NCBI GenBank assembly: GCA_038049695.1
Contig: CP142461.1
Location: 33,921,001-33,985,000 of the forward strand
Direction of reading: 5' to 3'
Source of the DNA: Cinnamomum chago
Lineage: Eukaryota > Streptophyta > Magnoliopsida > Laurales > Lauraceae
DNA length: 64,000 bases
Shown here: piece by piece, positions 26,601-53,600 of the stretch
Layout: the number at the start of each line of letters is the position of its first letter
How positions within the stretch are numbered: position 1 is the stretch's first letter
The notes under the pieces: generated by a model
Seen by the model: only the letters and a program-made list of their open reading frames with translations
Told to the model about the DNA's origin: nothing
The model's database searches: none
Made by a program: the position numbers and the translations under genes

Positions 26601-29600
26601 ATTACAGGGACAGTGAAGAATTGTCCAGGCCGTAACCTTATACTCCATTTCATTGCTTGGACCTCTGGTCTTTGATGCAACCAAGTTTTAAATGTCATCT
26701 TGGATTCTCCTTGTCCACAAAAGCCATCGAATGCTTCACTTCCAAGATATGCTGAGAAAGTAATCAACCGAAAGTAGCGCTCCAAGTATTCAGCGCCACG
26801 GTTCAAAGCAACCCTTCTCACCCTTGGCTCTACATGTTGTTGATTAAATACCCTCCTATACTGAAGAACTGCTTGCCGTATGTTCTGCAGAGCTGAACAT
26901 CTATCAATAATAGCATCCAAAATCCCACGACATTCAACCCCATTATCAAATAGCCTAGTTATCTTGCGTAATAATAGGATGTCATCAATTCCAAAAGCAT
27001 GCTGTAGCTCCTTTGGAGCTCTAGCCTTTGTTATAGTGGACATTCGTGCAGCACCATCACATCCAGCTTCTTCACAACTTGAAGAGCCACTGTCCATCTC
27101 TTCATGAGACACATCTCCAAATTGCATTCTAATAGGTCTCCCATAATCAATTCGAAGTTTCAGAAGGCAAGCAATCACGGTACCTGTAGTTGTCCTCCCC
27201 CTACCCATCTGCCACCAAAATAATATTAAAGGTCAAAGTGATGAATAATGCTATGATGAATATATTTCTGAAAATCGAAAAGGTCATATGCATATTGACA
27301 TAATTCAAGCATCAAATATTGTAACAACAACTTATGGGATACCTACCTGGCAGTTAAAAACAAAAGCAGTATCCTTGGAGGCAGAGACAATGTTCATTGC
27401 CAAGGTGTCAAAATCGGAACTTTTGGGAGCTTTACCATCAGTGATGGGCACACGTGCATATTTAATAGGGAGACCTTCAGCCTCCAAACATTTGTAAACC
27501 TCCAGAGGGGTCTGAACTACTTCGGGATTTACATGTTCCCATGCATCAAATATTTGACTATCTTCTGTTTCATGAATTACCATTATGGCACCACCATAGC
27601 GCTCAGCCTCCCGTAGAATGTCCTCCTTTAATCGAGCTTCCATTCTCTCTACTCTTTGCCGATCTATTCCCTGTAATAATTCCAGTTTTGAGTAAATCAG
27701 TAAAAAAAGGACTGTTTATTCTGTTTGAAAATTGATAGCACAACATAAAATCTTCCAGCTGGAGAAAGAGGAAGACAAATCAAACTAAATGACAAAATAA
27801 TACAACATTTGAGTACATCCAATGGAAAAGAAAATGTAATCCCACAAAAGTACCACACATACAATTGGATTGCTATGATCTGATGCATCACCCGAATAAA
27901 AGATCAAAGTCTACATAAGACAAACAAATCAAGAATTTAAAATAAGCAGGAGAAATTTCTACCGTGTACTCCAGCATGTTCTTGAATGGCCTTTCCACCT
28001 CACGAAGTACAAATGGTTTTCCATTGATATAGATAACAGGCTCTTCTCTCATATTGTGCCAGAAAACTGGGCGTCCCCCTTTAGTGCTACCTACCCTCCG
28101 AACAACAGTTCGAATGCCATCTACCGTTGGATTGGCAACACCATAAACTGGAAAACCAGGAACTTCTCTGAAATTAGGTGCACCTTCTACTCTTTCTGGC
28201 AAAGTAAGGTTTTGACAACCAGGGCAATGGTCACTTTTTAAAACAGTTTGACTTCCCAGCACTTCTCCATCCCTCATGGCAGCAACTACCCCCATCTCAC
28301 AAGGACGGTGATCAGTAGATTCAACATTTTTCATCAAAGAAGATTTCGGGCTCGAACAACCAAGTGCACCCATTGGGTTTCTCCTCAGCAACCTACAGAA
28401 AAGGACAGAAGTATACAGGAACTGAAGTCCATGCAAAATGGCAGCAATGAACACATACATTGTAACATGGATCTGCAATGGTAATGAAGTAAGAAACATT
28501 CCTTGTCTTTAAAAATAGGAAAAAAAAAAAAAAAAAAGGAAAGGAAAAAAGAAACAGAATCCAAAGCTTAAGTACCAAACTCCTCAAGATTGAACCAGAG
28601 AAAGTAACCGTATTCCTACAAAGAACTGTGTATCTTAAGTTACATTAATAGAAAGAGAGTGATTTTTTCGAATAACACATTGCACTCCCGCTAGTCTTCC
28701 CTTTTCTAACACAATAAGCCCTAATATACCATTTCAATTTCCAAAAAATCACAAACCGGTGACAAAGCAGGTCAAAAGAGGAAAGAAGCATCTGCACTGC
28801 TTTTTGTCATTAACTGTATGACATAAGTAAATGTACCAACAAACATCTTAAAATTAAAAGCCCATGTCATTTGATAGATCTATATTTTACAAAATGTATG
28901 ATACTTTCATAAAGTGATCCTACCATCTGTTAGAAAGCACTTTGAAATTTTCCCTACTCTCTTAGCAGGATAAGCAGGATTTATAAAAGGGGACACATAG
29001 TTCACCACGTGATCTGATAGGGCGGCATTTATCAATGCAATTCTTCCTCTAAAGAAAAGATATCTAGTCTTCAATGATGTTAACCACTTCCCACATGTTC
29101 AACAAATGTCTCCCAAGTGGTCAGCTCCTCTAGGGTTAACTCCAATGAAATCAAGGGACATTATAGGGTACTTCCCAGTCTTACAAACCATAACCATAAC
29201 ATCATTCATAATCGCCTCATCAAACCAAACTTGAACGCCTTTCTATTACTAGCAGTAACCTTAAACCTGATCAAAATCTTGGCGCACAAAACCTCATAGC
29301 CTCTGCTTGTAATATGGTCAAATCCAGTATGTGAAGAATATCTTTTGTATACAGTAAATCAGGAATTGTGTCTATTATCTTTAGGCAACCAATTTTTTTT
29401 AAATAAAAAGTAAAAAATAAAAATAAAATAGTAGTTATCATTACTTTTGAAGATTTTTAATTAGAGCATGAATCATTCTGCAACCACCATTGGAACCTGA
29501 TCCTATCTCAAGGGTCAACTTGGTGCAATCTACTTTTTCACTTAACTGTATTCAAAGTCATGTTCTTTATGGCTACACAATCTATCATGTTTGTCCTAAC

Positions 29601-32600: not shown

Positions 32601-35600
32601 GGTTTATTGGTTACTTGGCTATTTTAAACTGCAGGGATTGCTATTTGCAAATTTGAATTTTTATCCCTCGATTCCATATATTCCTACTTTGTTGATAATC
32701 CCCCATTGAACCTAATCTTTGTTAAATCCTCGAAGGGACAACATATCTGATTGTTGTTGGCTGATCCCTAAGCTAGTGGAAGAGATATTCTTACATCGAG
32801 ACTCTCAATTTAGATTTGAGTGATTCATAATGTGGGATTGTGAATTTGTGACGAGGCCTAGGATCATCACTAATTCCTTAATTGGAATTCTACATAAGTG
32901 GTGTGATCTGAATTTCTCTTTATAATTTAGTCGTGATTGTTAATCGAATTCTGATCTCACAATCATCATCTTGGGTTAGTCTTGCAAAGTCATGCATCAA
33001 CAAGTCCAATGGTTCTCATGTTATATATAAAGCTCGGCTTGTTGCTCAGGGTTTCAAACAAGAGTATGGTATTGATTAAGAGGAGATCATTGCACTCATT
33101 GCCAAGATGTTGATCGTCCACCCACTTCTTCACATTGCGGCTGTTTGCAACTAGTCATTAGTAATTACATTAGATGGATATGAAGTACACCTTCTTAGAT
33201 GGCAATATACATGAAATTGTCCACACGAAGCCAACATAAGGGTGCACTTGTCCTCCCAGTGTTGTGTGTCATCTCAAGAAATCTCTTTATTGAGTGCCTA
33301 GTTTGACAAGTTTCGTGATGCTATTGCCAATGGCCACTTCCACCAACGAACCCATGACCACTCCATGTTCATTTGTACTACTCACCGGGATCCAGTATCT
33401 TGTTGCCTTATGTGGATGATGATATCATCATTAGGGGATTATCTTGGATTAGTAATCTTCAAAGGTATCTCAAGCAAATCTTTCATTTGACAGACCTTGG
33501 ACGTCCTTCCTTGGCTTGGAATTCACAGAATCTCATGAGGCACACCACAATAGCTATCTAGTTGCTAGTAAGTCGCCCCAATCTGTTAGGGGGCGACTAT
33601 AAATTGTAAGCCCCACCTACACTTGGGGGGCAGATCACATTTTTACCTGAGAACGACTCTCTCCTCTCCTTCTCAAAGTTTGTACTCTTTTCTCCCTGCA
33701 CCCTAGAGCTAATAAAGTACCCGGCAACCAAAGTCATTCAAGAGTGGACGTAGGTCACGATTGACCGAACCACTATAAATTCTCTCTCTCCTTCAATTTT
33801 CACATTAATTACTTACTGCTTGACCGGTGGTGCCCGAAAACACAATTTGGCATCATCAGTTTGGCGCCGTCTGTGGGAATCGAAGAAAATTTCCTGTTTC
33901 GAAATTATGGTGATCACCACAAGATCAACGAGACGACAAGATGGTAATCCCTCGCGGGAGGGCGAGGGTAATCCTATACCGACTAATCCTGCACCGAATA
34001 CCCCTACTCCCTCTCCTCAACAAATGCTGGAAACCATGCAGCAGCTGGTGACCCAAAACCAGCAGATGCTGCAACTCATGCTCGCAGGGCAAGGAGGAGC
34101 ACAGTTTGGTATAGTACCACCGCAGGAAGTACCGTGCCCGGAGCATCCGACTGCTCCACGCAGAGGAGCACCTCACCTGGGCGCCCATCCCCATGGTGCC
34201 CGGGGGCGAGGAGCCGCCTGTCCTCATCCTCACCTGGGCGCCCATCCCCATGGCGCCCAGGGCGCCTCTGCTGGAGTTCCCCATGTCGCCACACACGGAG
34301 TACTCCTGGTCGATCCTCAAGGCCACGCCCATCACAAGGTGCCTCCACCCCCGGGTGGAGCCTAATTCGGAGGACCTCCAGGAGGGGCAAATCGCGGTGG
34401 ACTTCCACCTCCTCCCCCTGCTTCTAACGAGGAGGATCCTCATTTCCAGGAGGGGGGGAGTGAAAATCACAGCATGGAAGATGGAAGCTATTTCCCTGGT
34501 CCGTCCAGGAAACCCAGCAATTGCTGGGAGGAAAAGATCAAAGAAATGCAGAATCAACTGGGCGATGTCTTCAACGCCATAAGGGCGCAGGCACCGGAGA
34601 CGGTAGATTATCTGGTCGGGTGAACGGATACACCATTCAAGCCTGACGTGGTGAACTACCCACTCCCTTGGAAGTTCAAGATGCCATCCGTGGAGACCTT
34701 TGATGGAACAAAGGATCCACTAGACCATCTGGAGACGTACAAAAACAAAATGCAACTGCATAATATCCCTGACGAGATAATGTGCAGGGCGTTCCCAACT
34801 ACATTGAAGGGTTCCGCTCGGCAGTGGTTTGCCAATCTCCCCCAAGCATCCATAGCCACCTTTGGAGAGTTGAGCAAATCTTTTGTCTCACACTTCATCG
34901 GTGGGTGCCGCCACCAGAAGCCTACCACACACCTGCTCAGCATAAAACAGGACCGAGATGAGAGTCTGAGGAGTTACCTCATTCGTTTTAACGAGGAGGT
35001 CCTCCAAGTCGAGGAGCCCAATGACAAAGTCACCATGACCGCCTTTCTGGGAGGCCTCCGTTCATCCAGTTTCCTTTTATTAAGTAATGAAGCGACAACC
35101 AAAGAGCATGCCAGAACTGTTGGCAAAAGCTAAAAGATATATAAATGCTGAGGAAATCAACAGGTCCAGGCGAGGTGAATCATCTCGTGGATCGCCAAAA
35201 GCTTAACCAGCCTCTGCACTGTTCTCAAACAGGCAGCCTATCTCCAGCTTAGCGGCTCTCTCGCGGGTCGCCAAAAAAAGCTTGGCCTACCTCTGCACTG
35301 TTATTAAACAGGCAGTCTATCTCCAGCTTAGCGGCTCTCTCGCGGGTCGCCAAAAAAGCTTGGCCTACCTCTGCACTGTTCTCAAACAGGTAGCCTATCT
35401 CCAGCTTAGCGGCCCTCTCGCGGGTCGCCAAAAAGCTTGGACTACCTCTGCACTGTTCTCAAACAGGCAGCCTATCTCCAGCTTAGCGGCTCTCTCAGGG
35501 TCACCGAAAGCTCAGTCTCAAAAAGTGCAGCTCTCACACGAGCAATCCTCAAACGCTGTCTTTGCTCTCACGCAAGCAATGCTCTCTCTCTCTCTCTCCA

Positions 35601-38600
35601 GTGCAGACGAGGCCTGCCCACGCCTGTCCTCAAACAGCGCTCCTCCATCGCGATCAGCAAAATCGCCTCTCGAGCAGCACCCAACCCAGGCGCCCGACAT
35701 CTCTCAGGCGCCCAGCACCTCTCAGGCACCCAACGACTCACAGGCGCCCAACCTTGGCGCCCAGCACCTTAAGCGTCCAACACCACAGGGGCGCCGCCAG
35801 TACCAGCGCCACAAGGGGTGCCCACAGCCCCTTCCGTCAGCCAAAGCAGCGCCCAAGGCAGCGCCAACTCCCCGTCCGTCCCTCGCTACAGCAGGGGCGC
35901 CCCGTCCGTCCCTCGTCGCAGCAGGGGCGCCCCGGCCATTACACGTCGCAGCAGGGGCGCCCCGTCCGCAATTCCCGGCGATCGTCCTCCCTGCACCTCC
36001 TCTGCGCAGACCACGGGCAGCCCCTGGGCTCTCTTCGCGCAAACAACCAGCTCGCCCAGCTGGATTGCGCCCCCAGCCTGGATTGCCACTCTTCCCGCCT
36101 GGGTCTCCTCTCCCGCGTCGCCCCCTAACGCTCCTACAAAATTCACTGCCTATGGCAGTGATTGATGGTATCAAAAGTCCAAAAAAGGTCTAGAAACAGC
36201 TGTTTTGGCCTCCAGAAAAAAAAATCTGCTCACCTGGCCTGATCTGCTCACCCGAGCCAGCGGGAACAGAGCGCCCAGGGCGGCGCCAACTCCTCGGCCG
36301 CCCGCCGCAGCAGCGCCGCCCGTCGTCGCAGCAACAGGCGCAGTGGCCAGGGCGCCCCGCCCGTCTCCCCGCGGCAGCAGACGCAGCAGGGGCGCCCTCT
36401 CCATGTGCTCGCCCACCAACAAAAAAAAAAAAAAAAAATGAAAAGTACCACATGGGCGCCCCTGCCCGTGGTTCATCCAAGCACCCGCTCTGACCAGTGA
36501 ACCAAAAGCCCACTGCGAGAGTAGTTGTCATTACTCATGACGTCATATGAAGGACAAAAGTCTCCATTATGGTGATTGGAAATCGTCAATATCTGGCTGT
36601 GAAAAGGAGTTGTAACTAGCTTAAATGGACACCCCAAACCTGACATCAGTCAATAATTGGATGGCCCACTTATGCTTCTAATGAAGAAACGTTCATGATC
36701 CATTCTTCATTTGATCTAGAATATGAAAAGGAGAATTAGAAAACCGTGCCCCAGCGCCCGCGCCTCCACCACTCAGAGCTCAAAAATTCAAGCTAATGCC
36801 CCTTTTCCAAGTTTTCTTAGACAAGGGGCATTGGGGGGCAAATGATGGGCCAAGCCCAAATGGCCCAATCCATGTGGAAAGCCCAATCTTATAAAGACCC
36901 ACCAAGCCCAAAGTGGTCCAAGTCCAGTCAAGTTCATAAGGGAGCCACATAGCCTGGCTACATCATCAGGAGAAGCATCCAGGAGCCTCAGCCCTCTCCT
37001 CATCTTTAACCGAGTCTCATGGAGAGCACCCCAACCACCTCACCCGTTGAGAAGAAGTCGTGAGCTCCACCATAATAGCTATCTAGTTGCTAGTAAGTCG
37101 CCCCAATCTGTTAGGGGGCGACTATAAATTGTAAGCCCCACCTACACTTGGGGGGCAGATCACATTTTTACCTGAGAACGACTCTCTCCTCTCCTTCTCA
37201 AAGTTTGTACTCTTTGCTCCCTGCACCCTAGAGCAAATAAAGTACCCGGCAACCAAAGCCATTCAAGAGTGGACGTAGGTCACGATTGACCAAACCACTA
37301 TAAATTCTCTCTCCTTCAATTTTCACATTAATTACTTACTACTTGACCGGTGGTGCCCGAAAACACATTTTAGCATCATCACAATCCTTTAAATAAAATT
37401 AGAAACTAATGACATATAATTAGTTAAAAAAATATTCTAAATCTACTTGGCCCCTACATATGGCTTGAGGTCTATTTGCATCATTCTCCCCGGCTTGGAA
37501 AGCACGCGACCTCAAGTTCGGTAAATGTCCGCCTAGGTCGAAGATCAATCGGACGAACTTCCAATCCATTGGATGAACAGTAATTTCTGGGCACAACTTC
37601 ATGTATAACTTCCGATGGTCATAATTTGAGCAGATGCATGATCGAACCGTTGGATGCTTCAATTGATAAATATACACCATCACATCACAATATCTGACTA
37701 GCCATTGTTCAACTCCAAATTTCCATTGTTGATCCCCAAAGATAAAGTCAATATGAGGGCTTCCAACGGATAGATCTTGTGAAAGCATTAAACTAGTTGT
37801 TAGATCCATGTCTTCAATGTTCGTTTTTCCTTCCTATTCCTTTACATCTTCAACAGGTTGATCTTCTTCTACATGTTCAATTTGATCAACGGCGTTCTCA
37901 TGTTTATAGGCGGTTGCATAGAAATCTGCCTTGCACTCCTCTATTTCTCGACCTTCACCTCGATAATTATCCCCAAAGTGGCCATTTTCTAACTTGCTAA
38001 GTCCGATGTCCATCCTCGCAATAATTGCTTGGATTTGACCGACTACAATTCTAATTTGACTGAAAGATGTGGATATTTGAGAAATGGCTCCAGTAAATTT
38101 CTCCATGGGTGAAGATGAAGACAACACTTCTACATGCTTCTTAGGAGGCATTTTTTTAATGAAAATTTAAAAACTTTGACTAACCTAAAGTGCATATCTA
38201 CTCTTCACGATCACATTGGCGAAAACGGATCTGAAATCTGACGGTGGATGACTCTGATATTGCCGAAAGAAGTTTCAGCCGCTAATCTAGTCAATCTGCT
38301 TTGGGCTTGGTCAAATCTGCTGATTGTTGGACTTCTTGTTGAAATGGGTCAATGGACCAGAAATTAACTTAGACTAGGCTTTGGATGGACTTGGGCCAAG
38401 ACTCAGGTCAAGCCCAATTGGTTGGCACGTATATATGGGACACGTGATTTCTCCTCCTTGGACCTCGTGTCGATGAAGTAAAAGGGCTGGAAATCCCTTT
38501 TGTTGCACTATGCTACACGAAGGGGAGAAAAGGGAGGCTTCCACTTGGGTTCTCGTTCTTCGTTGGCGACAAGAGACGCTGTTGGATGGTGCTCCTGTCG

Positions 38601-41600
38601 ATGATGGTGACGTTGGAGGAGCAGGCTACGATGAGGACAGTGCTGCTGCTATGCTATGATGAAGCACGAAAGACATAAAGATGCCAAGTACATCCTATTC
38701 TTTCTTCTTCCTCTCTACTTCTATTTTCTTTTTCTTTTTTAATTCTAGGATGGGGGACGAAGAGATGGGTTCGGGTGTTGGGTGGGCGGTAATGGTTTGG
38801 CCGAGGGGTTCTGCAAGGAGGGTTTCAGACGGTGGCTGGGTTGGAATTAAGTATGTGGACGACAGTTGTGGCTCGGCTGTGGGTATTGGGGCTGGGTTAG
38901 GGGAGCAATTTTTTTTATTTTTTTATTTTTGGGTTTCAACAGGACGGGTTTCGATCGGAGTTGGTGACGATGGGATTGGGCTAGGGAGATGGAGTCTTGG
39001 TTTTGATGATGGGTTTCAATCGGTTTGACTGTTTGGGATGAGAAGAGTTTGGTTAGCACGTGGGTTCGGTTTGACTGAGATCTAGGGGTGGGATTGTGGG
39101 ATGATGAACGGAAGGGTTGTGGGTTTTGGATTTGAAAGGTGACGAGGGTGGCTATAAAGATAAATGGGCAGATCGGTGGTGATGATTTGGCGAATGGATG
39201 GATAGGGGTAACACGCTGATCGATTGAGGGATCGTTCGGTTTTGATACCAATTGATGCAGGCCCTAGGGGTTAGGGCTTGAGTGGAAAGTGCTCGAAGCA
39301 TGTGTTCGAGACGATAAAGGAGGACGCACGTCAATGGGAAAACCCAATTTTCATTAATCGAACTCTAAAAATAATTATCTAGAATGCCATATAAATAGGA
39401 AAAGAAAACTTAAGCCCTAAGAAACCTAATTAAACTAGGAAACTAAATAAATTGGAAAACTAATCCTAAATACGATTCTTTAAATAAAATTAGAAGCTAA
39501 TGAAATATAATTAGTTAATAAAATATCCTAAATCTACTTGGGCACTACACATGTGGCTTGAGGTCTATCTACATCACCCTACAAGGATCGGTGCATGTTT
39601 CTTGGCACATCTTTGGTCTCCTAGAAGGGCAAGGAGACGACGGTGTCCAAATCCTTAGCAGATGCAAAGTATCACTACATGTCCTTAGCTGTCAATAAAA
39701 TTATTGGCTCCGATGACTCAGAATTCGGCATGACTCTTAAGGAAGCTACTCCCTATTTACTTATAATATGCCATGTAAATAGCCTTGAATCCTATCTTTC
39801 ATGAGCACACCAAACATATAGAGGTACATGTCATTTCATGATAATAAAAAATTGTATTGAATGAAAAGTTAGCAATACAAAAGGAACGTACGAAAAAAAA
39901 AATGCCATCCGAAAGGAAATAAAATAGACCAAGAAAGGAAGGAGAAACCGCCCAAACAAATTAAAAGGAGACAAGCTCCCTCCAATTAAGTAAAGTGGTC
40001 TGTAAAGGCACACCCCAAAAGTCTGGAAGAATAGAAACCAAGAAGCCACATGAAATCTAGCACTTGCAATAACAGAAGCCGTAGAAGTTTTCCCCACAAA
40101 ACATCTCTAGTTTCTCTCCTTCCAAATAGTCCAAATAATGGCTAGAAAAGAAAAACGCCATAGAATTCTCCCTTTAGCTATAAAAACCCAAACTTCCAAC
40201 CTTCATAAAGATCAGAGATGGACTTAGGGAGAACCCATAGTTACCTAGTTCACAGTTTGACCGATTCGCATTTGAATTCGCAATTCAAAGTTCGACACTT
40301 GCCTCAATTCAAAAGTTCAATTTGGTATTTTCATATAGTTCGGTATTAGATTCAATCGATTCATAGTTTGGGTTCGATAAGTTTCATACAATAACTCGAA
40401 GAAGTTAGTGATAACTTGCATATTCCAAAGGTCCAACTCACGTTTTTCTTTTGGCATATTTCTTATAAAATTGCTGGCATCGGCTCATATTAACTTTAAA
40501 ACTCCTAAAAGCACCTGCCCTTTTATTAATAGTAGCTAGAATTTAACTTCCATAGGAGTGGGATCCACTATTTGATCAATCCTCTTTTATACATAATTAG
40601 ATTCATAAATTTTGTGATTTCTATTCAGGTATGATCAATCAGGTAGGGCCTCTAAATTGAATGTAGTGAAATGTGAACCTCTTTAAAAAAAGAAAAAGAA
40701 AAAAAGAAGTGATGATGGTGATGATGCCAAAAAGTGTTTTCGGGCACCACCGGTCAAGTAATGAGTAATTAATGTGAAAATTGAAGGAGAGAGAGAATTT
40801 ATAGTGGTTCGGTCAGTGTGACCTACGTCCACTCCAAACTGATGATTTTACTTCTCCGATGTAGAGATTACAGGTCGGGAGAATACAATAAATGTGCAAA
40901 TACGGATGGAAATTCCTTGCCCCCCAAGTGCTGGTGGGGCTTTTTAATTTATAGTCTTCCCCTAACAGATGGGGACGACTCTTCAGCAACGGGCGCTCCA
41001 TTATGGCGGAGTCTTCGAACTTCCCTCAACAGACGAGACAGGTAGGATCTTCTCTGCAGGACTTGGTAAAAGCGGGTTAAAGGAACGACGTGGCTATCTT
41101 GACTTCGTCGCTTCGTCGATCTGGACCCGGCCTTTGATGGGTGGATTTGGACCTAGGCTTACCACAAACTCGGGTCATTTAGGCCTGACCCACCATCATG
41201 AGCTGAATCACTTAGGCCTGACCCATCATTTGCCCCCCAATCCCTCGCGCCAAAGGAAACTTTGAAAGTGAGGCATTCTGAACATCCAGGCTTTCTTAAT
41301 TCCGAGCATTCGTATCCTTCCCAGACACTGCCCGTCTCTGCCCTTTCTTTTTGAGTTTCAGAGGAGAGTTCTTTTGGCTCAGGGTTCTTTCCCTCTCTAA
41401 AAACCCTAAACCCTAGGCTATAAATAGGATTATTTCCCCCCATTCTCCCTTGAAATAAGATATCCTTTTTGAGGTTTTGAAGAGTGGAGTGATTCTCTTC
41501 TTGTTCAAGATAAGAGAAGCACTATGGAGCATACAGATCAAGGAGATGGAGTCTGCGCTGGTGAAAGGTCGACCACCCCATGCCCTGCTGCTGCTGGGCG

Positions 41601-44600
41601 TGCTGCGCACGATGGAGGCGCCCCTGGCACAGGAGCGGCTGCGGCGTCGGACGATGGACGGGGTGCCCCTGCCATGGGCGCCCCTGCTGCAGGCGTTGCT
41701 GCGACGGCGGATGACGGACGGCGGGGCGCCCCTGCTGCTGCGGGCGCTGCGAGGGCGGACGCTGGACGGGGCACCCCGGGCTGCGGGCGATGGACTGGGC
41801 ACCCCCGCTGCGGCGGCAAGGAGCTCGGCCCAGTGGACTGCTGCAGGTGGACGAGGAGCGCTGGGCGCTGCTGCGCGCGATGGGCAGGGCGCTGGCGCTG
41901 CTGCGCGCACCCAGCCTGCTACTGGTGGAGAGGGCTGGGGCGCCACCTTGGGCGCCCAGCCTGCTGCTGTGATGGGCTCGGTGCAGGCCATGGGTGAGGG
42001 TGGCAGCGCCCATCAGGCGTCGGGCGAGGTGAACACGGGCGCCGCGGCAGTGGACACGATACATTCTCGTCGCAAGAGGTATCGAGGAAAAGTGGTTGTC
42101 GACGACGACGGATCCAAGGTGAGCACTATTCTTAGTGTGTTCAACACTAATGGTGACATTTTGAAGATGGCTTCTTCTTATCATATTCCTCCCACTGTGC
42201 TATGTCGCCGGGCTGAAACGGACGAGCCTGCTTGCGACGACTCCTCGGGTGACATTGCCATTTATGAAGAGATGCTCGAAGCCGGGCTGAGGTTCCCCAT
42301 GCCCTCCTCCATTTGCCGCATTCTTCATTACTTTTCACTGACCCCGGGCCAGTTAGCACCCAATGGCTGGAGAGTTCTACTCGTCTTTCTTGCATTATGG
42401 AGGAGGGTTCATCACGAGGATGCTTCTCCTGTGGAGTTCCATGCTGCCTACAGCCTAATTGAATCTCCGGCCCCTAACAGGGGATGGTACTATCACCCCT
42501 AGGGGTGACAAGCTGCTCACGGGTCTACGTTCCAATTGCCACAGTTGGAAATCCCGTTTCTTCTTTATTGGTGGAGAGTGGGCTTCTGAGACAAACCGGG
42601 CTTTGGTGCCTGTACGATGGGCAAAGGCAAAAAGACTCGATACTTCACTGATTTCTCCATCCTTTTTATGCATACACATGCTCATTCATATTTTTTTTTT
42701 CCAGAGCCCCCAGTGCTTTCTTCGGATCAGAAGCAGAAACTGCAGGCCGTGAGGGCGCATCCTGACAAAGATTTGGGCATCGTCCTCCCAAAAGAGAGTT
42801 GTAGGACTAATGGACCCCCTCCGGACTCTTCTAACATTGATAGGACTAGTGGACCCTCTCCGGGGACTTCTTCTAAAAGAAAAGGTACGCCACTTTTTTT
42901 TTTACCTGATATTCTATACCTAAGTAATACTATTGCTTCTGCAGCAGTAGACAGAGAGGTGATTGGGGCTCGCCTTTCAAGTAGGAGTGCCCCTCCTTCC
43001 AAGGCGGCAAGGGTGGACAACACTTCAAGAGGGAACTCTCCACCAGTAACTTTCAGGGCGAGCTCTCTCGTATCCACCCCTTCAGCGGGGGCACGGCCGT
43101 GTTCCCATCGGGTGGCCTCTGCCGCAGCGTCTCCCCAGCCAGCGACCTCCTCCGCGACGATTGCTACTCCGGAGTCTTTTTCTCTGGGTGTACCTTCTGC
43201 CCCTCGTTCGTGTCCGTCACGCTCGGGGCTCCTGCAGGGGCATCAACTTGGGTTGGTCCCATGCTGGGCAATCCGCTGGTGATTCAGGAAAAGCTCGGGA
43301 GATTTGTGTTTCCTCCTGAGGTTACGCAGATCAATGCTTTGGGCACCGAGAGGGTTATCGACACATTCCTAGAGGGTCTGGCTCAGGTAAAGGTTATTGT
43401 TCCTTTTTCTCCAGACTTTCAATATTTTGTATATGTGTAGTCTCATTTTCTTTGTCTCTTATCGTTTCAGGCTTCTACTGCGTCCGTCTGCTTGTTATCA
43501 AGGGCCCGACATCACACTCAGCTGAAGCAGGACAATGAGAGTATGCAAAAAGAGCTCTCCATTGCTCAAGGGAAGATTGCTGCTCTTCAAGCTAGTAGAG
43601 GAGCTTCCGAGGCTGATCTTACGGCGGCCCGCGAGAGGGCGACCAGGTTTGAGACTGAGCTTTCGGCAGCCCGCGAGAGGGCGACCAAGGCAGAGGATGA
43701 GCTAGTGAAGGCCCGCGAGAGGGCTTCGCTCAGTGAGGCTGAGCTTGCACAGACCCGCGAGAGGGCGTTGCTCAGAGAGACTGTCGTGGAGACAGAGATG
43801 AAGGCGGCACATGATAGAGCTTCTTAGGCTGAGAAGGAGTTAGCGGATGGTCTCGCTGATGCCTTTATTGATGGCTACGAGGAGCTCCGAGGGAAGATCT
43901 CTACTGCCTATCCAGATATTGATTTCTCAGGCTTCGTGCCGACTGAGGCGCCTGATGATAGCAGTGGCCGCTCTGACGAGGATGATGATGATGACGCTGG
44001 GGATGATGCCGAGGATGATGACGAGGATGAAGAGGACAGCTCTGAGAGTGATTAAGGGGCAGGGGGCTTTTGCTGTACTCTTTTGTTTTGTTTTTTTTTT
44101 TTAGAACGGCAACTTACAGCCTAACTTTTGGTAATTGAATGAAAATGCAAGGATCTTTTCTCACAAAATGTAGTGTTTTATTCCTCCATTTCTTACTGCT
44201 TGAACAATGTCAATAGGAAAACAAAAAAAATAACTTAAACCCCACACCTTCACTACTCTGGCTCTTTTAGAATGTCACTGACAGTACCTCTTCAAATGTT
44301 CCGCGTTCCATGGATGGAGTAAGACCTTTCCTTCAGAATTTTGGATTTTGTAGGTGCCTGGCCTTACTACTTCTGTTATGAGGTATGGCCCTTCCCAGTT
44401 TGGTCCCAGCTTTCCTTCGCGAGTCCTTTGTAGCGAGGATCACCTTTTTGAGGACTAGGTCTCCCGGTTGAAAGGAACGAAGCTTCACCCACGAATTGTA
44501 GTACTTTGCCATACGCCGTTTGTACTCCGCGTTACGGACCATAGCCATCTCCCTTGCCTCCTCTATCAAATCAAGGTTGATGCGGAGTACTTCCTCGTTG

Positions 44601-47600
44601 GTGACGGGGTCATGGAGATGGACCCTCGAAGAGTGTACAACTATCTCGACAGGGATGACTGCCTCAGTCCCGAAAGCGAGAGAGAAAGGGGTTTCCCCAG
44701 TGGGAGTTCTCGGCATGGTTCGATAGGCCCATAACACTCCTGGGAGCTCGTCAACCCAAAGACCCTTCGCTCTTTCGAGCCTTGTCTTCAGGTTGCGAAG
44801 GACCGTTCTTACCATGACTTCTGCCTGCCCATTTGCTTGTGGGTGTGCCAGACTGAAATGAGGCTGCTTTATATGGAGGTCGGAGCAGAAGGTGTTGAAG
44901 AGTTTGTTATCAAATTGCTTGGCATTGTCACTAACAATGGCGTGAGGTATCCCAAAGCGACAGACTAGGTTTTTCCAGACGAAATCTTTTACCTTTGAGT
45001 CTGTTATTTTTGCTAAGGGTTCTGCCTCCGCCCATTTTATGAAGTAGTCAATGGCGATGACTACAAACTTGCACTGTCCTCTGCTCAACGGAAGGGGGCC
45101 CAAGATATCAATGCCCCATTTGGAGAAAGGCCACGGGCTCAAAATTGAAGTCAGCTCCTCCGGTGGCTGCCTTGGCACAGTGGCGAAGCGTTGACACTTG
45201 TCGCATTTTTTGGAAAATTCTTTGGCGTCCTTCACCATGGTAGGCCAAAAGAATCCTTGCCTTAGTGCTTTGTGGGCAAGGGAGCGTCCTCCAGAGTGAT
45301 TCCCGCAGATTCCTTCGTGAATCTCCCGGAGGGCGTAGTCAGCTTCCTCAGGTGAAAGGCAGCGCAGCAGAGGCAAGTAGTAACCTTTCTTGTAGAGTGT
45401 GTCTTGCAGGAGAGTGAACTTTGAAGCCCTCATCCTAAGTTTTTTCGCCTTGAGGGGATCATCTGACTCTGTACCTTCTTGGAGGTACGCCCTTATGGGG
45501 GTCATCCAGTTTGACTCGTCCGTTGTACAGTTGATGTTTGTAGTATTTACATCTAACTTACTTGGCTCCAACTGGTGTCCAATGAGTGTTGGTTCGGCAG
45601 ATGAGGCCTCCAACGATGAGGCGAGCCTGGCGAGGGTATCTGCTACCATGTTTTCCCCTCGAGGGATGTGACAGATCTGGAAACATTGGAAACGCGGGAT
45701 CAATCTTTTCACCATGCCAAGGTACTCCTGCATTCTTTCCTCTTTTGCTTCGAACTCCCCATTTACCTGATTAACCACCAGTTTTGAATCACTGTAAGCA
45801 ACAAGGGACAAGGCGTCCATCTCTATCGCCAATCTCAGACCAGAGAGGAGGGCCTCATATTCTGCTTCATTGTTAGAGGCAATGAAGTGGAGTTTTACTG
45901 CGTACTTAATGGGTGTACCATCAGGGCTGATTAGGATGAAGCCAGCCCCACTTCCTTCACTGGTTGCCGAGCCATCAACATATAGTCTCCAAAGCGGCTG
46001 TGGTGAGAGAACCTGATCGCCTGGATGAGGCTGGACGCGCAAGGGGTCTTTGGCGTTTGGTGAAGAGGTCCCCTGGGCACCCAGGGGGCTTTGGGCGCCT
46101 GAGGAGGTCCCCTGGGCGCCCAGGCCTGAGGGGGAGGCCTCCTGGGCGCCCAGGGTGTCTTGTGCGTCCGGGGCCTCGGAGTGTGGAAGAGGCTGGGAGC
46201 CCTGGGTGCCCCTCTGGATGTCTTCGGTAGGTGGCAGATCGACTTGGGCGCCGGGGTCGACAGTGTATGTAAACTCAGCTACAAAGTCGGCCAGGGCTTG
46301 TGCTTTGATGGCCGCCCTTGGCTGGTACTGGACATCGAACTCGCCTAGTCCTACTGCCCACTTAACGAGTCTCCCGGATACATCCGGCTTTCCTAGTATT
46401 CTCTTCAGAGGCTGATCAGTAACTACAACAATTGTATGGCTCTGAAAATAATGTCGCAGCCGCCTTACCGTCGAGATGAGGGCGAGCACCAGTTTTTCCA
46501 ACTCCGAGTATCTGGGCTCTGCCCCTCGGTATGCTCTGCTTACATAATAGATGGGCTTTTGCACTCCATCATGATTTCTGATGAGGACAGAGCTGACTGC
46601 TGAGGGGGAAGCAGAGAGGTACAAATATAACACCTCGCCGGGTGCAGCATGTGAAAGAAGAGGGGGAGCGGCCAAGTAGGCTTTAAGCTTCTGGAATGCC
46701 TCCTCAGCCTCGGGTCCCCACTCGAAAGTTTTCCTGAGGATTTTGAAAAAAGGCAAGCACTTGTCTGCAGACTTTGAAACAAATCTGTTAAGCGCTGCAA
46801 CCCTTCCATTGAGGCGCTGCAGCTCCTTGGTGGAAGTGGGCAACCTCATGTCCAGTATAGCTTTGATTTTATTGGGGTTCGCCTCAATCCCCCTTTGGTT
46901 GACCATGAAGCCCAAGAACTTTCCTGATCCCACGCCGAAGGCATACTTCTCAGGATTCAACTTCATACGATAGAGCCTGAGAATATTAAAAGTTCCTTGG
47001 AGATGGTCGATGTGATCTGCAGCGGCGAGGCTCTTCACCAACATGTCGTACACATAAACCTCCATAGTCCGCCCTATCTGTGAGTGAAACATTTTGTTCA
47101 CTAGGCGTTGGTAGGTTGCACCTGGATTTTTCAGCCCGAAAGGCATGACCCTGTAGCAATAGGTCCCCTTCGGGGTGATGAACGACGTCTTCTCTTGATC
47201 TGGGGGATGCATGTTGATCTGGTTGTATCCAGAATAAGCATCCAGGAAGGAGAGGAGTTCATGTCCTGCTGTGGCGTCAATGAAGAGATCAATCCTTGGC
47301 AACGAGAAGCAGTCCTTTGGACATGCCTTGTTAAGGTCAGTGAAGTCGACACATAGGCGCCACTTCCCATTCGCCTTCGTCACCATCACGACATTTGAGA
47401 GCCATTCAGGGCATGCTACTTCCCTGACAGCCCCATTCTCTATTAGCTTCCCGACCTCCTTGTCCATTGCTTGGGCCCTTTCAGTGGAGGCGCCCCTTAG
47501 CTTTTGTCGGATAGGCTTGTGGCGGGGGTCGACATTGAGGCGGTGAGTGGCGACTTTGGGATCAATCCCTTCGAGATCCGCATGTGACCATGAGAAGATG

Positions 47601-50600
47601 TCCATGCTACTCTTCAGAAAGTTGGTCAAGTGGCGGACCAGATCCTCAAAAAGAGAAGAGCCAATGTATACTCTTCTATCAGGGAGGTCTTCATTTAAGA
47701 CCACAGGGGTGAGTGCTTCAACTGGTTCTCCCCTCTCTGTAGTGGCCTCGTCTCTCGGGTCCAGAATTCCAACTTGCAACGCCTCCTGCGTTTTCTTGGC
47801 TTTCATTGAGGAGACGTAGCATTCTCTTGCTACTACCTGGTCCCCCCTTACCTTCCCGATTCCATTCGGGGTTGGGAAGCGGAGGATGAGATGGTAGGTG
47901 GAGAGGACGGCTCTTAATACATTAGGAGTAGGCCGTCCCAGTATGATATTATAGGCTGAGAGGCAGTCTATCACCAGGAAGTTGACCATTGTAATGGAAC
48001 TTCGGGGTGCCGCCCCGGCTGTGATTGGCAGTGTGATTGACCCTAAGGGATACACCTTCTCTCCTGAAAAGCCGATGAGGGGGGATTTGACAGGCTGCAG
48101 CCTCTCCCGGCCCAGATTCAGCTTATCATAAGCTTCTGCAAATAGGATATCTGCAGAGCTACCACTGTCTACCAAGATTCTGTGTACCTGAAAATTGGCG
48201 ACGGTCATTGTGAGCACTAGAGGGTCATCATGGGGGTGCTGGATCCCTTCTAAATCCTTATCTGACTACGAGGAGACGTTTGCACCTATGGCCAAAATGA
48301 CATCTGTTCGGTTACTTCTCGCCATTGCTACCTCAAAATCTTTGCCATTATACCAAATGGATGTAAAAAATGCCTTTCTCCATGGGGATTTGAAAGAAGA
48401 GGTCTATATGAGAATACCGCAGGGCGTCACCTCTCCATCTAAAAATTATGTTTGTCGTCTCCGGAAATCTCTTTATGGTCTAAAGCAAGCTCCTCGGGCA
48501 TGGTTTGAAACTTTTAAGGGGTGTTTATGCACAAGTGGCCTTACTCAGAGCCCTTACGAAGTTACGATCCCTTTCTGTTCATGCAAAGAACATCTACTAA
48601 TGTTATTGTTCTACTTGTGTATGTTGACGATATTATTATCACTGGTACTGATGAAAGGATGATCAAGTCTATCCACGCCTCTCTCCAAGATTATTTCCAT
48701 ATGAAGGATTTGGGTTCTTTACATTATTTTCTAGGCTTAGAAGTACATCAATCTCCCAAGGGCCTATTTCTCAATCAACACAAATACACATCTGATCTTG
48801 TTGAGCTTGTTGACCTACATGAATCTTCGCCAATTGATACACCTGTAGAGGTCAACCTAAAATTGAGTAAAGATGATGGCAATCTTTTTCCTAATCCGCA
48901 TACCTACAAGCGCCTGTGGGCAGCCTAGTCTATCTCACCAGCACTCGACCAGATATATCCTATGCTGTCAATCTAGTGAGCCAATTCATGACATCTCCTA
49001 GACACCTTTATCTGACTGCTGTCAAGCGCATTATCTGGTATTTGTCAGGAACTGTCACTCGTGGTTTATATTATCCCAAGGATAATCAGCTTCAGTTGAC
49101 AGTTTATGCAGACGCTGACTAAGCGGGCTGTCAGGATACTCGTCGGTCTACTACCGGTTGGTGCATGTATCTTGACAATTGTCTAATTTCTTAGAAATGC
49201 AAGAAATAAGAACGTGTTTCTCGATCTCCTATAGAGGCAGAATATAGGGCAATGTCTTCCGCATGATCAGAAATCTTATCGCTACGGGGACTTCTTTCGG
49301 AACTCGGAATTGCATAACCATCCCCTACATCCTTGCATTCAAATAATACTGGGGCTATCAAGATCACTGAAAATCATGTCTTCCATGAACGCACCAAACA
49401 TATTGAAGTGGACTGTCACTTTATTCGGGATGAATTGAAGCGTTATGTCATTTCTTTACCTCGTGCCTTCAGTTTGCTGACATCCTCACCAAAGGACTTC
49501 CTCGGCCTCGACATCAGTTTCTAGTTTCCAAATTGCTGCTTTGTGACTCTCCCGCATCAATTTGAGGGGAGGGGGGGGTCAATCTAGGAACTTGTATCAA
49601 TAAGTTATCAATAATTTAGGACCTTGGAATAATTAATTTAGCTATAACTTAGGAACTCGAATTGTATTAGGATACTAATAATAGGGTAACCCACCCTTAT
49701 ATAATGAGAAGGACACAACCCTAAGGGGACGCGTTTTTCCTCCTCCAATATTCTTATTCTATCAATGCGTGTGCAGCTAACATCCAAGATATAAATCCAG
49801 TCACTCAGTAGAAATCAAAAATCTATCTAACTGCGATAGAGAGGGAGAAGCTTGATGATTAGATCAGGTGAACTTGGCACCAACCAAGTGATCCAGTCCG
49901 AGAAACCCTCCATATCAGCTTCACTTCTCAATGGGATGCCTGATAATATTCCAGTCCCCCCTAAACACCAGGGGCCAGCCCATCTACTTTGGATAGAATT
50001 CAACTCGTCCCATAATAGATTCCGGAGGCTACTGTCATTTGGACCATAAACAGAAGTCAACAGCCACACCAACTTTGTAGAGAGGTCATCCAAGAGAAGA
50101 GAAAACATAAAATCTCCAATCCACTGGTCTCTGACATTAAAAACCCACTGTTCCAAATAAATAAGATGCCCCCAGCAAAGGCAACTGCATCGGGACAACA
50201 CCACTCAGCAGAATAATCTCCCCAAACCTCTTTCACAATCTTATCCTGCACAGAACTTACTTTTGTTCCCTTATGTTTGTGAATTAACTCCTTAGTAGTC
50301 GCCCACTTGACTCGATTCCTTAAACCATGAACGTTACAAGATACGATCTTCATAAATAAGGCTTGACAGACCCCCTGGATCTCCTAACATTCCTGATGGA
50401 ATTCTATACCCAATCACAACCAATGCATCTTTTTTCATGGTTGATGGATCACGCTGTACAGACAGGAGTAACCCACATGGGTCAACTCAGCCTATTGGGT
50501 CAGTCCAAACCCAAAACAACAGGCCCAAATGACTTAGTCATTGGACAGCTTATGTACAGCTAGCTTCATTGTAATCTTTAGATTAGTTTCCTTAATATCT

Positions 50601-53600
50601 GTAGATTAGTTTCCTGAATATCACCCTAATCAAGGGATATACTAATTGTAAATGTACACAGCAGTATATATAAGACAAGTCGATGCTATCATTTTGATCA
50701 TCGAATCCATTCCTCAATACTGTCAACTTCTTGTAGTTTCTGTAAGATGGTATCAGAGCCTAGATAGCTTCTCCAGCCATCATTTGTCTATGCAAGAGAT
50801 CTATTCAAGAGTTTGTGGGATTTTCTACATCAGCAGGTTCCAGAATCCAGACACAAGCTCGGCAGTGTCAAAATCTGTTGTGAGCTAACGTGGCCCACCT
50901 GGGATCACTTCAGTCTTGACAACCTACATACTCTGGGTCGTCTGCTTACTTTGGGATTTCTAAACATTTTTTCAAGATTTTTACTACATCAGAGGTACAC
51001 CATTGGATCTGATTTGTAGTTTTCAGTTTTTTGGTCCTGATTTTCATCAACTCCGTTGAAATACCTGGATTTCCATTTTTTTTTAGCAACACCCGCTCTA
51101 GGAGGATCGAAATTAGCCTGTTAACATTATTTCAAAGGTTGATTGACCGTTGATCACTTTCTGGGGCCCACAGTACCTATTTTCTCCCCTCCAAAGAGAT
51201 CGCCCAGCCTGTTTTTGGCTCTTTTGTTCAGATCTGAACCTCTGTATTCAGATTTGCACCATCTGAAATCAGATCTACACATTCTAAGGGTTATTTGGGA
51301 CCTTCTATCTTGTTTCAAATGTCTTCTGACCGTGCTACTGGGATTACTGTCATTCTTGATGGGACCAATTATGCATATTGGTCTCACCTTATGCAAAATT
51401 TTCTAAAACGACAAAAGCTTTGGAAATACATCGTCAGTACCATAGCCCAACCAGATTCTAAAGACAGCAAGTATGAAGAATGGGAATCTGCCGTTGGAAA
51501 AATCAATTCCTAGATTGCTAATTCTGTCATTCCCTCTATTGGTAATCAATTAGCTAAATTTGATTATCCAAAAGAAGCTTGGGATTATTTGGCAAGACTC
51601 TACACTCAGACTAATACTGCTCGTCGCTATCAAATTGAATCGGAAATCAAAACTACTGAGCAAGGAAATTATTCTATTCATGATTTCTATGTTAAAATGA
51701 CTTCTTTATGGGATCAACTTGCTTTAATGGAGCCTCAGTTCAAATCTGCCGATGATACTGCCACCTTCCATACATATAGGGAAGAAACTCGGCTAGTTCA
51801 GTTTCTCATGGCTTTGCGATCTGATTTTGACCATGTCCGTGGCTTATTGTTGCATCGATCTCCACTTCCAGCAGTTGATATGACATTATCTGAGTTATTA
51901 GCAGAAGAACAAACACAAAGTTCCCTTACCAGAAAGAAACATGTAGATCCTGAACATGTTTTATCAGCAAATGCACTCCCGCAGAAAACTGAGCGCTCTG
52001 TTCCTCCTGGTGTTTCAGACATCTACAACTACGGCAAAGGAAAGGGCCATTGGAAATACAACTGTCATGTTCGCCCAAATCGGCAAAATAATAAGAACAG
52101 TCGGACTTCTCAAAAAAAAAAAAAATTTGAGGATCAGCATCTGTACCTCCTCAAAACATGCGCCCATCAAACCAGAATCATTCTCATCAGTCCAAGCAAT
52201 ATGCTGCTAATACAACAGATGCTGCAAAGGTTCTTTCCACTTCTCAAATTCAGTCCATGATTGATGAGCATATGCAACAGCTGTTTCTAGCATCCAGTTC
52301 TACTTATCCTATGGCTGCTTCTCCTTCTGATCCCAGTTTGGCAATGACAAAGTCTGGTGCATTAGGTAAACCAAATTCTGTATGGCTTTTGATTCTAGTG
52401 CCTCTTAACATATGACTTGTGATTCTTCCTTATTACATAGTTGTCATCCTCCTTCTAGAAATCTGAAAATACATACAGCAGATGACACACCACTTCCAGT
52501 CATTACAATAGGTTCAGTTTCCACTAAGAATCTGTCTCTTAGTACTGTACTATGTGTTCCAGACCTATCTGTAAATTTGATCTCTATTAGTCAATTGACC
52601 TCATCTGATTATCTTGTCTCCTTTACATCGAATGGTTGTTCTGTACAGGATACTCGCACTGGGAAGCAGATTGGGACAGGCCATAGGTCCGGAGGTCTCT
52701 ATCATCTTCACTTGTTACACCTGCTGTCACAAGCTTCTTCTTCTGTCGCTCTTACTTCTACAGTAGCACCTTTCTCTTTATGGCATTCTAGATTAGGACA
52801 TTTATCTTTGAATAAAATGAAAAATTTACATTCTGCTGGCTGTCTTGGTAACATTTATGTAACAGACATTTCAGATTGTTTTGGTTGTCAACTTGGTAAG
52901 CAGCATGCTTTACCTTATAATAAAAGTTCTTCTTTTACCCATGCTCCATTTGACTTAATTCATTCTGACGTTTGGGGACCTGCTTCCCAACCAACAAAAG
53001 GTGGTTTGCTCTACTATGTCTTGTTTATTGATGATTTTACTCGTTTTACATGGCCATATCTGATGAAACATAGGTCTGATTTTTATTCTATTTACACTAC
53101 TTTTTCTAATATGATTTTAACACAATTTGGTAAACGAGTAAAATTCTTTAGGTCAGATTCCGAGGGGGGGGGGGGAGAGATACATCAGTCATAGATTCCG
53201 AAATTTTTTAGACACTCAAGGAACTCAGGCTCAATTGTCCTGTTCTGCCACTCCATAGCAGAATGGTGTTGCAGAAAGGAAACATCGTCATATCCTTGAT
53301 ACAGCCCGCTCCTTGATCTACTTCTCTCATGTTCCGCTGATGTTTTGAGGGGAAGCAATTTTAACTTCTGTTTATTTAATAAATAGATTCCCCTCCTCTA
53401 TTTTAGGTGGTCTTTCCCCCTATGAGAAATTATTTTCTGTATAACCGGATTTGTCTCATCTAAAAGTATTTGGTTCCACCTGCTTTGTCCTTCTCCATGA
53501 CAATGAACGGACAAAACTTTCACCCAAGTCTGTTGTATGTGTTTTCCTGGGCTATGGAATTGAACAGAAAGGATATCGTTGCTATGATCCTAAATCCAAT

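Follow-up and report, generated by a model that had tools for sequence, protein, structure and literature searches.

We describe an antisense gene in a long terminal repeat (LTR) retrotransposon of the Retand lineage, located in a 64-kb stretch of the Cinnamomum chago genome (assembly GCA_038049695.1, contig CP142461.1, positions 33,921,001–33,985,000 of the forward strand; hereafter the window, in which all positions are counted). The gene lies on the plus strand between the 3′ LTR and pol, with its ATG at 41524 and its stop codon at 44055. It is very probably an accessory gene of the element that encodes a TRP28 protein and carries three predicted introns through retrotransposition. A search of Pfam matched it to TRP28 (PF04195, Transposase_28) with an E-value of 3.1e-10, above the gathering score.

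In the predicted structure, exon 1 (41524–42639) starts at the first ATG after a TATA box and comprises an Ala/Gly/Pro-rich leader and the TRP28 domain (∼42263–42406). It is followed by intron 1 (42640–42704, phase 1), whose excision brings exons 1 and 2 into one frame; exon 2 (42705–42884); intron 2 (42885–42944, phase 1), which may end at 42947 owing to a tandem acceptor, CAGCAG; exon 3 (42945–43386); intron 3 (43387–43470, 84 nt, phase 0); and exon 4 (43471–44055), which encodes a coiled-coil-like stretch of 14-residue (42-bp) repeats and then an acidic tail. An earlier sequence-only reading had reported the plus-strand open reading frame (ORF) opposite pol, the TATA box and the third of these introns with its GT...AG ends and an in-frame TAG at 43438, all of which we found as described; introns 1 and 2 are additional to the one for which it gave coordinates. 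The window copy itself is decayed. It contains several frame changes, one of them in exon 3, a broken frame in exon 1 and a premature stop codon at 43828; the donor of intron 1 has been lost and intron 2 is without a stop codon.

Copies of the gene were collected from the C. chago genome (1.06 Gb, 14 contigs) in two sets. The first was based on similarity to 43300–43830: scoring the best 40 of 290 candidates yielded 44 matches, which fall at 40 different places (the window among them), and ∼3.3 kb was extracted round each of the 39 other copies. For the second, a TRP28 profile was run against the genome, the best 150 of 2100 candidates were scored and loci were extracted for 30; five coincided with first-set places, leaving 25 loci. 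In total, 64 copies besides the window copy were compared. Among those covered, the donor GT was kept in 60/62, 60/62 and 61/63 copies for introns 1, 2 and 3, respectively (first set 35/37, 35/37 and 39/39; second set 25/25, 25/25 and 22/24). The acceptor AG was kept in 60/62, 52/62 and 60/63 copies (first set 35/37, 33/37 and 37/39; second set 25/25, 19/25 and 23/24). The sequence-only reading had named conservation of the GT and AG borders in intact copies as a check on its intron; the borders are conserved among the copies compared.

The lengths of the predicted introns, which span 54–98 nt, drift in a manner that is not typical of the coding sequence around them. Deviations from the modal length by other than a multiple of three were seen in 22/37, 24/37 and 17/39 first-set copies for introns 1, 2 and 3, compared with 0–6 of 35–39 copies for 84-bp exon windows (21 windows). 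The corresponding second-set figures were 8, 15 and 13 of 24 for the introns and 0–4 of 24 for exon windows (17 windows). The T content was 47–51% in the introns and 20–26% in the exons. At the level of DNA, the segments thus display what is expected of spliceosomal introns: GT...AG ends, a T-rich body and non-coding length drift.

Reading frames point in the same direction. Splicing is required for a continuous frame in 46/62 copies at intron 1, 57/62 at intron 2 and 31/63 at intron 3, and intron 2 carries a stop codon in 57/62 other covered copies. Starting at the TRP28 domain and running into exon 4, the spliced reading was open in 16 of the 40 covered copies (first set 5/17, second set 11/23) and the unspliced reading in none (0/17 and 0/23); 25 of the 65 rows in this test, the window copy included, failed the coverage rule. 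Precise loss of an intron was not found among the covered copies, the shortest forms of introns 1, 2 and 3 being 54, 57 and 69 nt. Were reverse transcription to proceed from the sense RNA, where the introns appear as CT...AC, such retention would be the expected outcome. It extends to freshly dispersed, very similar copies: four, on the chromosome-size contigs C1, C4, C7 and C9, are 99.59–99.70% identical to one another, and a fifth is 96% identical. In all five, intron 1 is 71 nt and intron 3 is 69 nt long; intron 2 measured 84 nt in the sole copy of this group for which it was measured exactly, and its donor GT is present in all 25 second-set copies, including the four near-identical ones.

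Next we compared substitution patterns between copies. The median ratio of nonsynonymous to synonymous substitution rates (dN/dS) in the expected frame was 0.08, 0.12, 0.44 and 0.33 for exons 1–4 (58, 34, 60 and 61 pairs), values that, since one reference copy serves in every pair, the copies have common ancestry and dS approaches saturation in some cases, are evidence of constraint rather than precise rates. In the two other frames, the exons gave 0.84–1.48 (exon 2, 0.84 and 1.09; exon 3, 1.11 and 1.01; exon 4, 0.93 and 1.25). Intron 3, read in the exon frame, gave 1.16 (58 pairs). As judged from these ratios, the exons are under protein-level constraint. The sequence-only reading had suggested comparing exons with introns in this way; few intron codons pass, and introns 1 and 2 (0.31–1.10 from 10–31 pairs) offer too few to judge.

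The three introns also stood out in the window copy on a composite intron-like score, which used approximate splice-site weights. The best plus-strand segments of the gene were 43387–43470, 42885–42944 and one ending at 42704, with scores of 33.0, 24.4 and 21.7; in 200 dinucleotide shuffles of the gene, these values were never reached rank for rank. The sense strand of the element, i.e. the reverse strand of the gene, held no intron-like segment of comparable score (best 10.9). The acceptor at 42704 ranked 1 of 3775 AG sites on the plus strand; for intron 3, the donor at 43387 came 20th among 3014 GT sites and the acceptor 39th among the 3775 AG sites. An initial placement of intron 1 at 42627–42704 with a GC donor was rejected, as it produced a frame clash at the joint; the copies place the donor at 42640, at which the clash is gone, and the counts of length deviations are identical for both starts. 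We also rejected the score alone as proof, as AT-rich DNA scores equally high. The score leans on base composition, and the comparison of copies was therefore the decisive test.

Several observations weigh against three spliced introns. On the intron scale, copia coding DNA (GC 0.40) scored 36.3, 27.1 and 25.0, and all three ranks were matched or exceeded by 30 of 98 equal-length windows, which were drawn from both strands of the 64 kb and in some cases overlapped the antisense gene. The query segment of the first set includes intron 3 and thereby introduces a selection bias; the second set, picked via TRP28, is without this bias and has some near-identical members. At 54–98 nt, the introns are shorter than is usual in plants. 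For intron 2, no more than 52 of 62 copies show AG at the aligned acceptor, a position that is uncertain because of the tandem CAGCAG. In 32/63 other copies, intron 3 has an open frame and a length divisible by three. Finally, L080, an extra copy picked for the longest frame (843 residues) among the TRP28 loci listed, stays in one frame across the sites of all three introns, with inserts rich in Phe and Leu. L080 retains GT and AG at all three places, around segments of 66, 75 and 75 nt. Multiplying the shares of open segments with a length divisible by three (16/62, 5/62 and 32/63), with the three introns taken as independent, gives 0.0106, or ∼1.6 read-through copies per 150 by chance, and L080 therefore needs no special explanation.

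These observations could be read as T-rich coding islands that supply the protein with hydrophobic stretches, in which case the stop codon in the window copy would be ordinary decay. Besides the frame of L080 and the open copies of intron 3, the absence of any stop codon from the intron 3 island in 55/63 copies (8/63 have one) is in keeping with such islands. We nevertheless regard them as very improbable: length deviations other than multiples of three are several times commoner in the islands than in exon windows, intron 2 mostly contains a stop codon, intron 1 shifts the frame in 46/62 copies, no covered copy is open when read unspliced, and the exon-frame ratio of intron 3 exceeds 1. A milder form of this idea, in which only intron 3 is optional or retained (exitron-like), so that both forms yield protein, one of them with a hydrophobic insert, and introns 1 and 2 are constitutive, appears unlikely as well, if less so. 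It would account for the much larger share of open copies at intron 3 than at introns 1 and 2, but the length of intron 3 is not a multiple of three in 29/63 copies, ∼30% of such T-rich segments are expected to be stop-free from base composition, and the copies share ancestry. The sequence-only reading had held that intact family members open through 43387–43470 would refute its proposal. On its face, the 32 open copies, whether intact or not, do just that; intron 3 still stands because its donor is kept in 61/63 copies, its length so often breaks the frame, and introns 1 and 2 need splicing in 46/62 and 57/62 copies. Its in-frame stop codon, said to be deleted by splicing, is a feature of the window copy: the codon at 43438 is TAC in 37, TAT in one and TGT in one of the 39 other first-set copies, and we rejected it as evidence for an intron.

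Two further alternatives concern the role and the origin of the gene. It might act mainly as RNA, the antisense transcript pairing with genomic RNA to give double-stranded RNA that dampens the element. Such a role has been proposed in a review (PMC7264820, seen in part), and the gene does lie inside the stretch covered by genomic RNA; the constraint on a single frame of the exons is nonetheless something that a purely RNA role does not need, and this explanation strikes us as decidedly improbable. Alternatively, a host gene could have been captured in antisense orientation together with the introns of its locus and now be drifting in the element without function. The presence of introns in a retroelement gene would hint at genomic DNA or an opposite-strand transcript as its source. 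Among recently active Retand clusters (122, from 34 species), however, 97% contain antisense TRP28 ORFs (Vicient 2025, PMC11963269, seen in part), and constraint on the gene persists. A recent passenger is therefore not what we see, and we give this explanation very little credence, while an old capture could still lie behind the gene. Collectively, the comparison of copies confirms the observation of the sequence-only reading at the level of sequence, partly on grounds other than those it gave, and partly supports its overall interpretation; its central proposal, an antisense gene whose spliceosomal-type introns persist through retrotransposition, draws DNA-level support from the GT/AG borders and the frames in the copies.

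We propose that the Retand accessory gene works as follows. RNA polymerase II would initiate from a promoter immediately internal to the 3′ LTR, in many copies made up of a telobox and a TATA box, and the spliceosome would take the three introns out of the antisense transcript. In the genomic RNA, which is the other strand, the same introns would read CT...AC, so that the next copy would receive them unspliced. The resulting protein would contain the TRP28 domain, the coiled-coil stretch and the acidic tail; with less confidence, we suggest that it is nuclear and regulates the element. A more speculative step, which we put forward tentatively and with considerable doubt, is a strand-lock, in which the antisense introns are kept by selection, since only the spliced antisense messenger would make TRP28 protein and the genomic RNA would be left as template. 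By extension, splicing may protect the antisense messenger against silencing or label it for export.

A candidate core promoter was identified by pattern and by comparison of copies at 41401–41428 on the plus strand. It consists of two AAACCCTA motifs (41401 and 41408), which we take to be of the telobox type, and the TATA box CTATAAATAGG (41418–41428). The TATA box is located 190 bp beyond the edge of the 3′ LTR at 41228, and no ATG follows until 41524, 105 bp after TATAAAT and not ∼125 bp as the sequence-only reading had it. The string TATAAATA occurs 11 times in the window on both strands, which corresponds to ∼0.009 expected occurrences per 100 bases of one strand. Among the 39 first-set copies examined, 34 had a promoter-region match and 30 of these contained TATAAAT; of the four lacking the motif, three yielded no more than 77–227 bp of sequence. 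The first ATG was found 100–109 bp past the TATA box in 18 of the 30 copies, eight stretches had no ATG and four had an earlier one. In the TRP28-selected set, TATAAATW was present within 1.5 kb upstream in 15/25 loci and absent from that reach in ten, and AAACCCTA stood 11–21 bp upstream of it in 13 of the 15. Speaking against a universal TATA box, no TATAWAW was seen in 2.7 kb of upstream sequence of two copies of the youngest subfamily (L081 with L072, and L082 with L073; both among the ten loci lacking TATAAATW). One young copy shows, at a place matched by eye, an AAACCCT motif followed by TACAAACAG and by an ATG in a favourable context, from which 346 codons are open as far as the TRP28 domain; in the young subfamily, the gene may have a TATA-less promoter. 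On these sequence comparisons, a promoter belonging to the gene is a plausible candidate in most copies: its TATA box recurs in most of the near copies and of the other loci, and was not seen in the two youngest copies read upstream. At the other end of the gene, a candidate poly(A) element, AATGAAAA, lies at 44138–44145 on the plus strand; it was found by pattern only, and the pattern occurs 15 times in the window on both strands.

The 3.5-residue periodicity of the coiled-coil-like stretch in exon 4 was equalled by 27 of 2000 shuffles. In the window (43609–43783) and in the copies, this stretch consists of 42-bp repeats, and length differences between copies are mostly multiples of three: in one 84-bp window of the coiled coil, 22 of 39 copies differ in length, four of them by other than a multiple of three. 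Structure prediction of the TRP28 piece gave a mean predicted local distance difference test score of 37.7 and was useless. Identity to the window copy is uneven along the gene in L050, L051 and L058 (0.78 in the TRP28 region and 0.91 in the coiled-coil exon), which suggests, at the sequence level, recombination between subfamilies.

The host element is oriented on the minus strand. Its 3′ LTR (40719–41228) begins with TGATGGG and ends with CATCATCA, and its ends match the LTR of a relative at 33.5–37.4 kb; the polypurine tract TTGGGGGGCAAA (41229–41240), identified by sequence, is common to both. The only other LTR matches inside the window are those of this relative. The pol gene, of the Ty3/gypsy type (44275–48265; reverse transcriptase, RNase H, second RNase H and integrase, assigned by Pfam domains) runs tail-to-tail with the antisense gene, whose stop codon is separated by 219 bp from that of pol at 44275–44277; a frame change is present close to the pol C-terminus. 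Domain matches within pol were RT_RNaseH_2 (516–614), RVT_3 (763–881), H2C2 (977–1027) and rve (1046–1134), with those to rve and RNase_H slightly under the cut-offs, and an upstream DSG motif is presumably that of the protease. The 5′ side of the element is cut off beyond ∼48265. The adjoining frames at 48192–48928, with motifs that we take to be those of a copia-type reverse transcriptase, look like a second nested or deleted element. A second, archaeal-type RNase H lies between RNase H and integrase, a mark of the Tat clade that Ogre elements have in common (PMC6317226, seen in part), and an antisense TRP28 ORF lies between pol and the 3′ LTR, as in Retand. By domain content and layout, the element is a Retand-lineage (Tat clade) LTR retrotransposon and the antisense gene is its accessory gene.

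The relative (33533–37386, plus strand) shares LTR ends with the element at 94% over 117 bp and carries a gag domain as well as ∼78-bp tandem repeats. Neither pol nor TRP28 was seen in this interval, and it is a non-autonomous or deleted relative. Further along, a copia-type element occupies 50455–57307 between 293-bp direct repeats that are 97% alike. It contains a GAG-pre-integrase domain, and its integrase match falls under the cut-off. On the minus strand, 26585–28508 likely contains host-gene exons with intron-like gaps and two PTPlike_phytase parts, one above and one below the cut-off. Searches of viral, prokaryote and plasmid collections for relatives returned nothing usable, the sole pattern match being a plant contaminant without the gene. 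A 4661-bp contig filed as Streptomyces clavifer JCM 5059 (BMWJ01000029.1) holds one long plant-type Tat pol with reverse transcriptase, RNase H and second RNase H domains and is almost surely plant contamination.

Antisense ORFs in Tat elements were already known, as the sequence-only reading had noted. In the parts of the Retand survey available to us (PMC11963269), the antisense TRP28 ORFs lie, as here, between pol and the 3′ LTR, and some antisense ORFs contain SMC-type domains. That survey counts contiguous ORFs, whereas the window gene is split by three predicted introns; surveys of unbroken frames in plant retrotransposons would see a spliced antisense gene only as pieces. A transcribed counterpart is gene23 of maize Grande, an accessory gene that also sits antisense between pol and the 3′ LTR and for which the available portion of PMC7264820 reports antisense transcription from its own promoter and a nuclear product; transcription of the window gene, by contrast, is predicted. 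The same article asks others to seek antisense and spliced transcripts. Exon-joining reads from the gene described here could derive only from the antisense strand, which would offer a clean RNA test. The word "intron" is absent from the main text of PMC11963269 and PMC7264820. Introns in antisense TRP28 genes also went unreported in the titles and abstract beginnings of the matches listed; Gomez-Orte 2013 and Steinbauerova 2011 may already describe them. The gene belongs to a known kind, the Retand antisense TRP28 gene, in an intron-dependent form that is undescribed in the literature surveyed.

Use of the host spliceosome would in itself not be new to the Tat clade. Ogre elements contain a spliced intron between gag-protease and reverse transcriptase (PMC6317226 and PMC12786077, both seen in part), located on the sense strand; the introns predicted here are on the antisense strand instead. 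If splicing occurs as predicted, Retand elements, with reported occurrences in eudicots and monocots, would maintain a gene spliced by the host over successive cycles of reverse transcription, and both the function of the TRP28 protein and the existence of deltaretrovirus-like antisense regulators in plant retrotransposons would become testable. The human T-cell leukemia viruses HTLV-1 (HBZ) and HTLV-2 (APH-2) produce spliced antisense RNAs that encode a nuclear regulatory protein, according to the available part of PMC10186651. The likeness is one of operation only, an antisense gene of an LTR element with a spliced antisense RNA (predicted in our case), as one is a retrovirus and the other a plant retrotransposon. 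No bZIP domain was among the Pfam matches of the pieces of the antisense gene (E up to 1 and E up to 0.01). The antisense promoter of HTLV is inside the 3′ LTR, whereas the one proposed here, judged by the place of the TATA box, is outside it. Should the strand-lock be true, Retand would represent a plant counterpart of the deltaretroviral spliced antisense regulators, reached independently.

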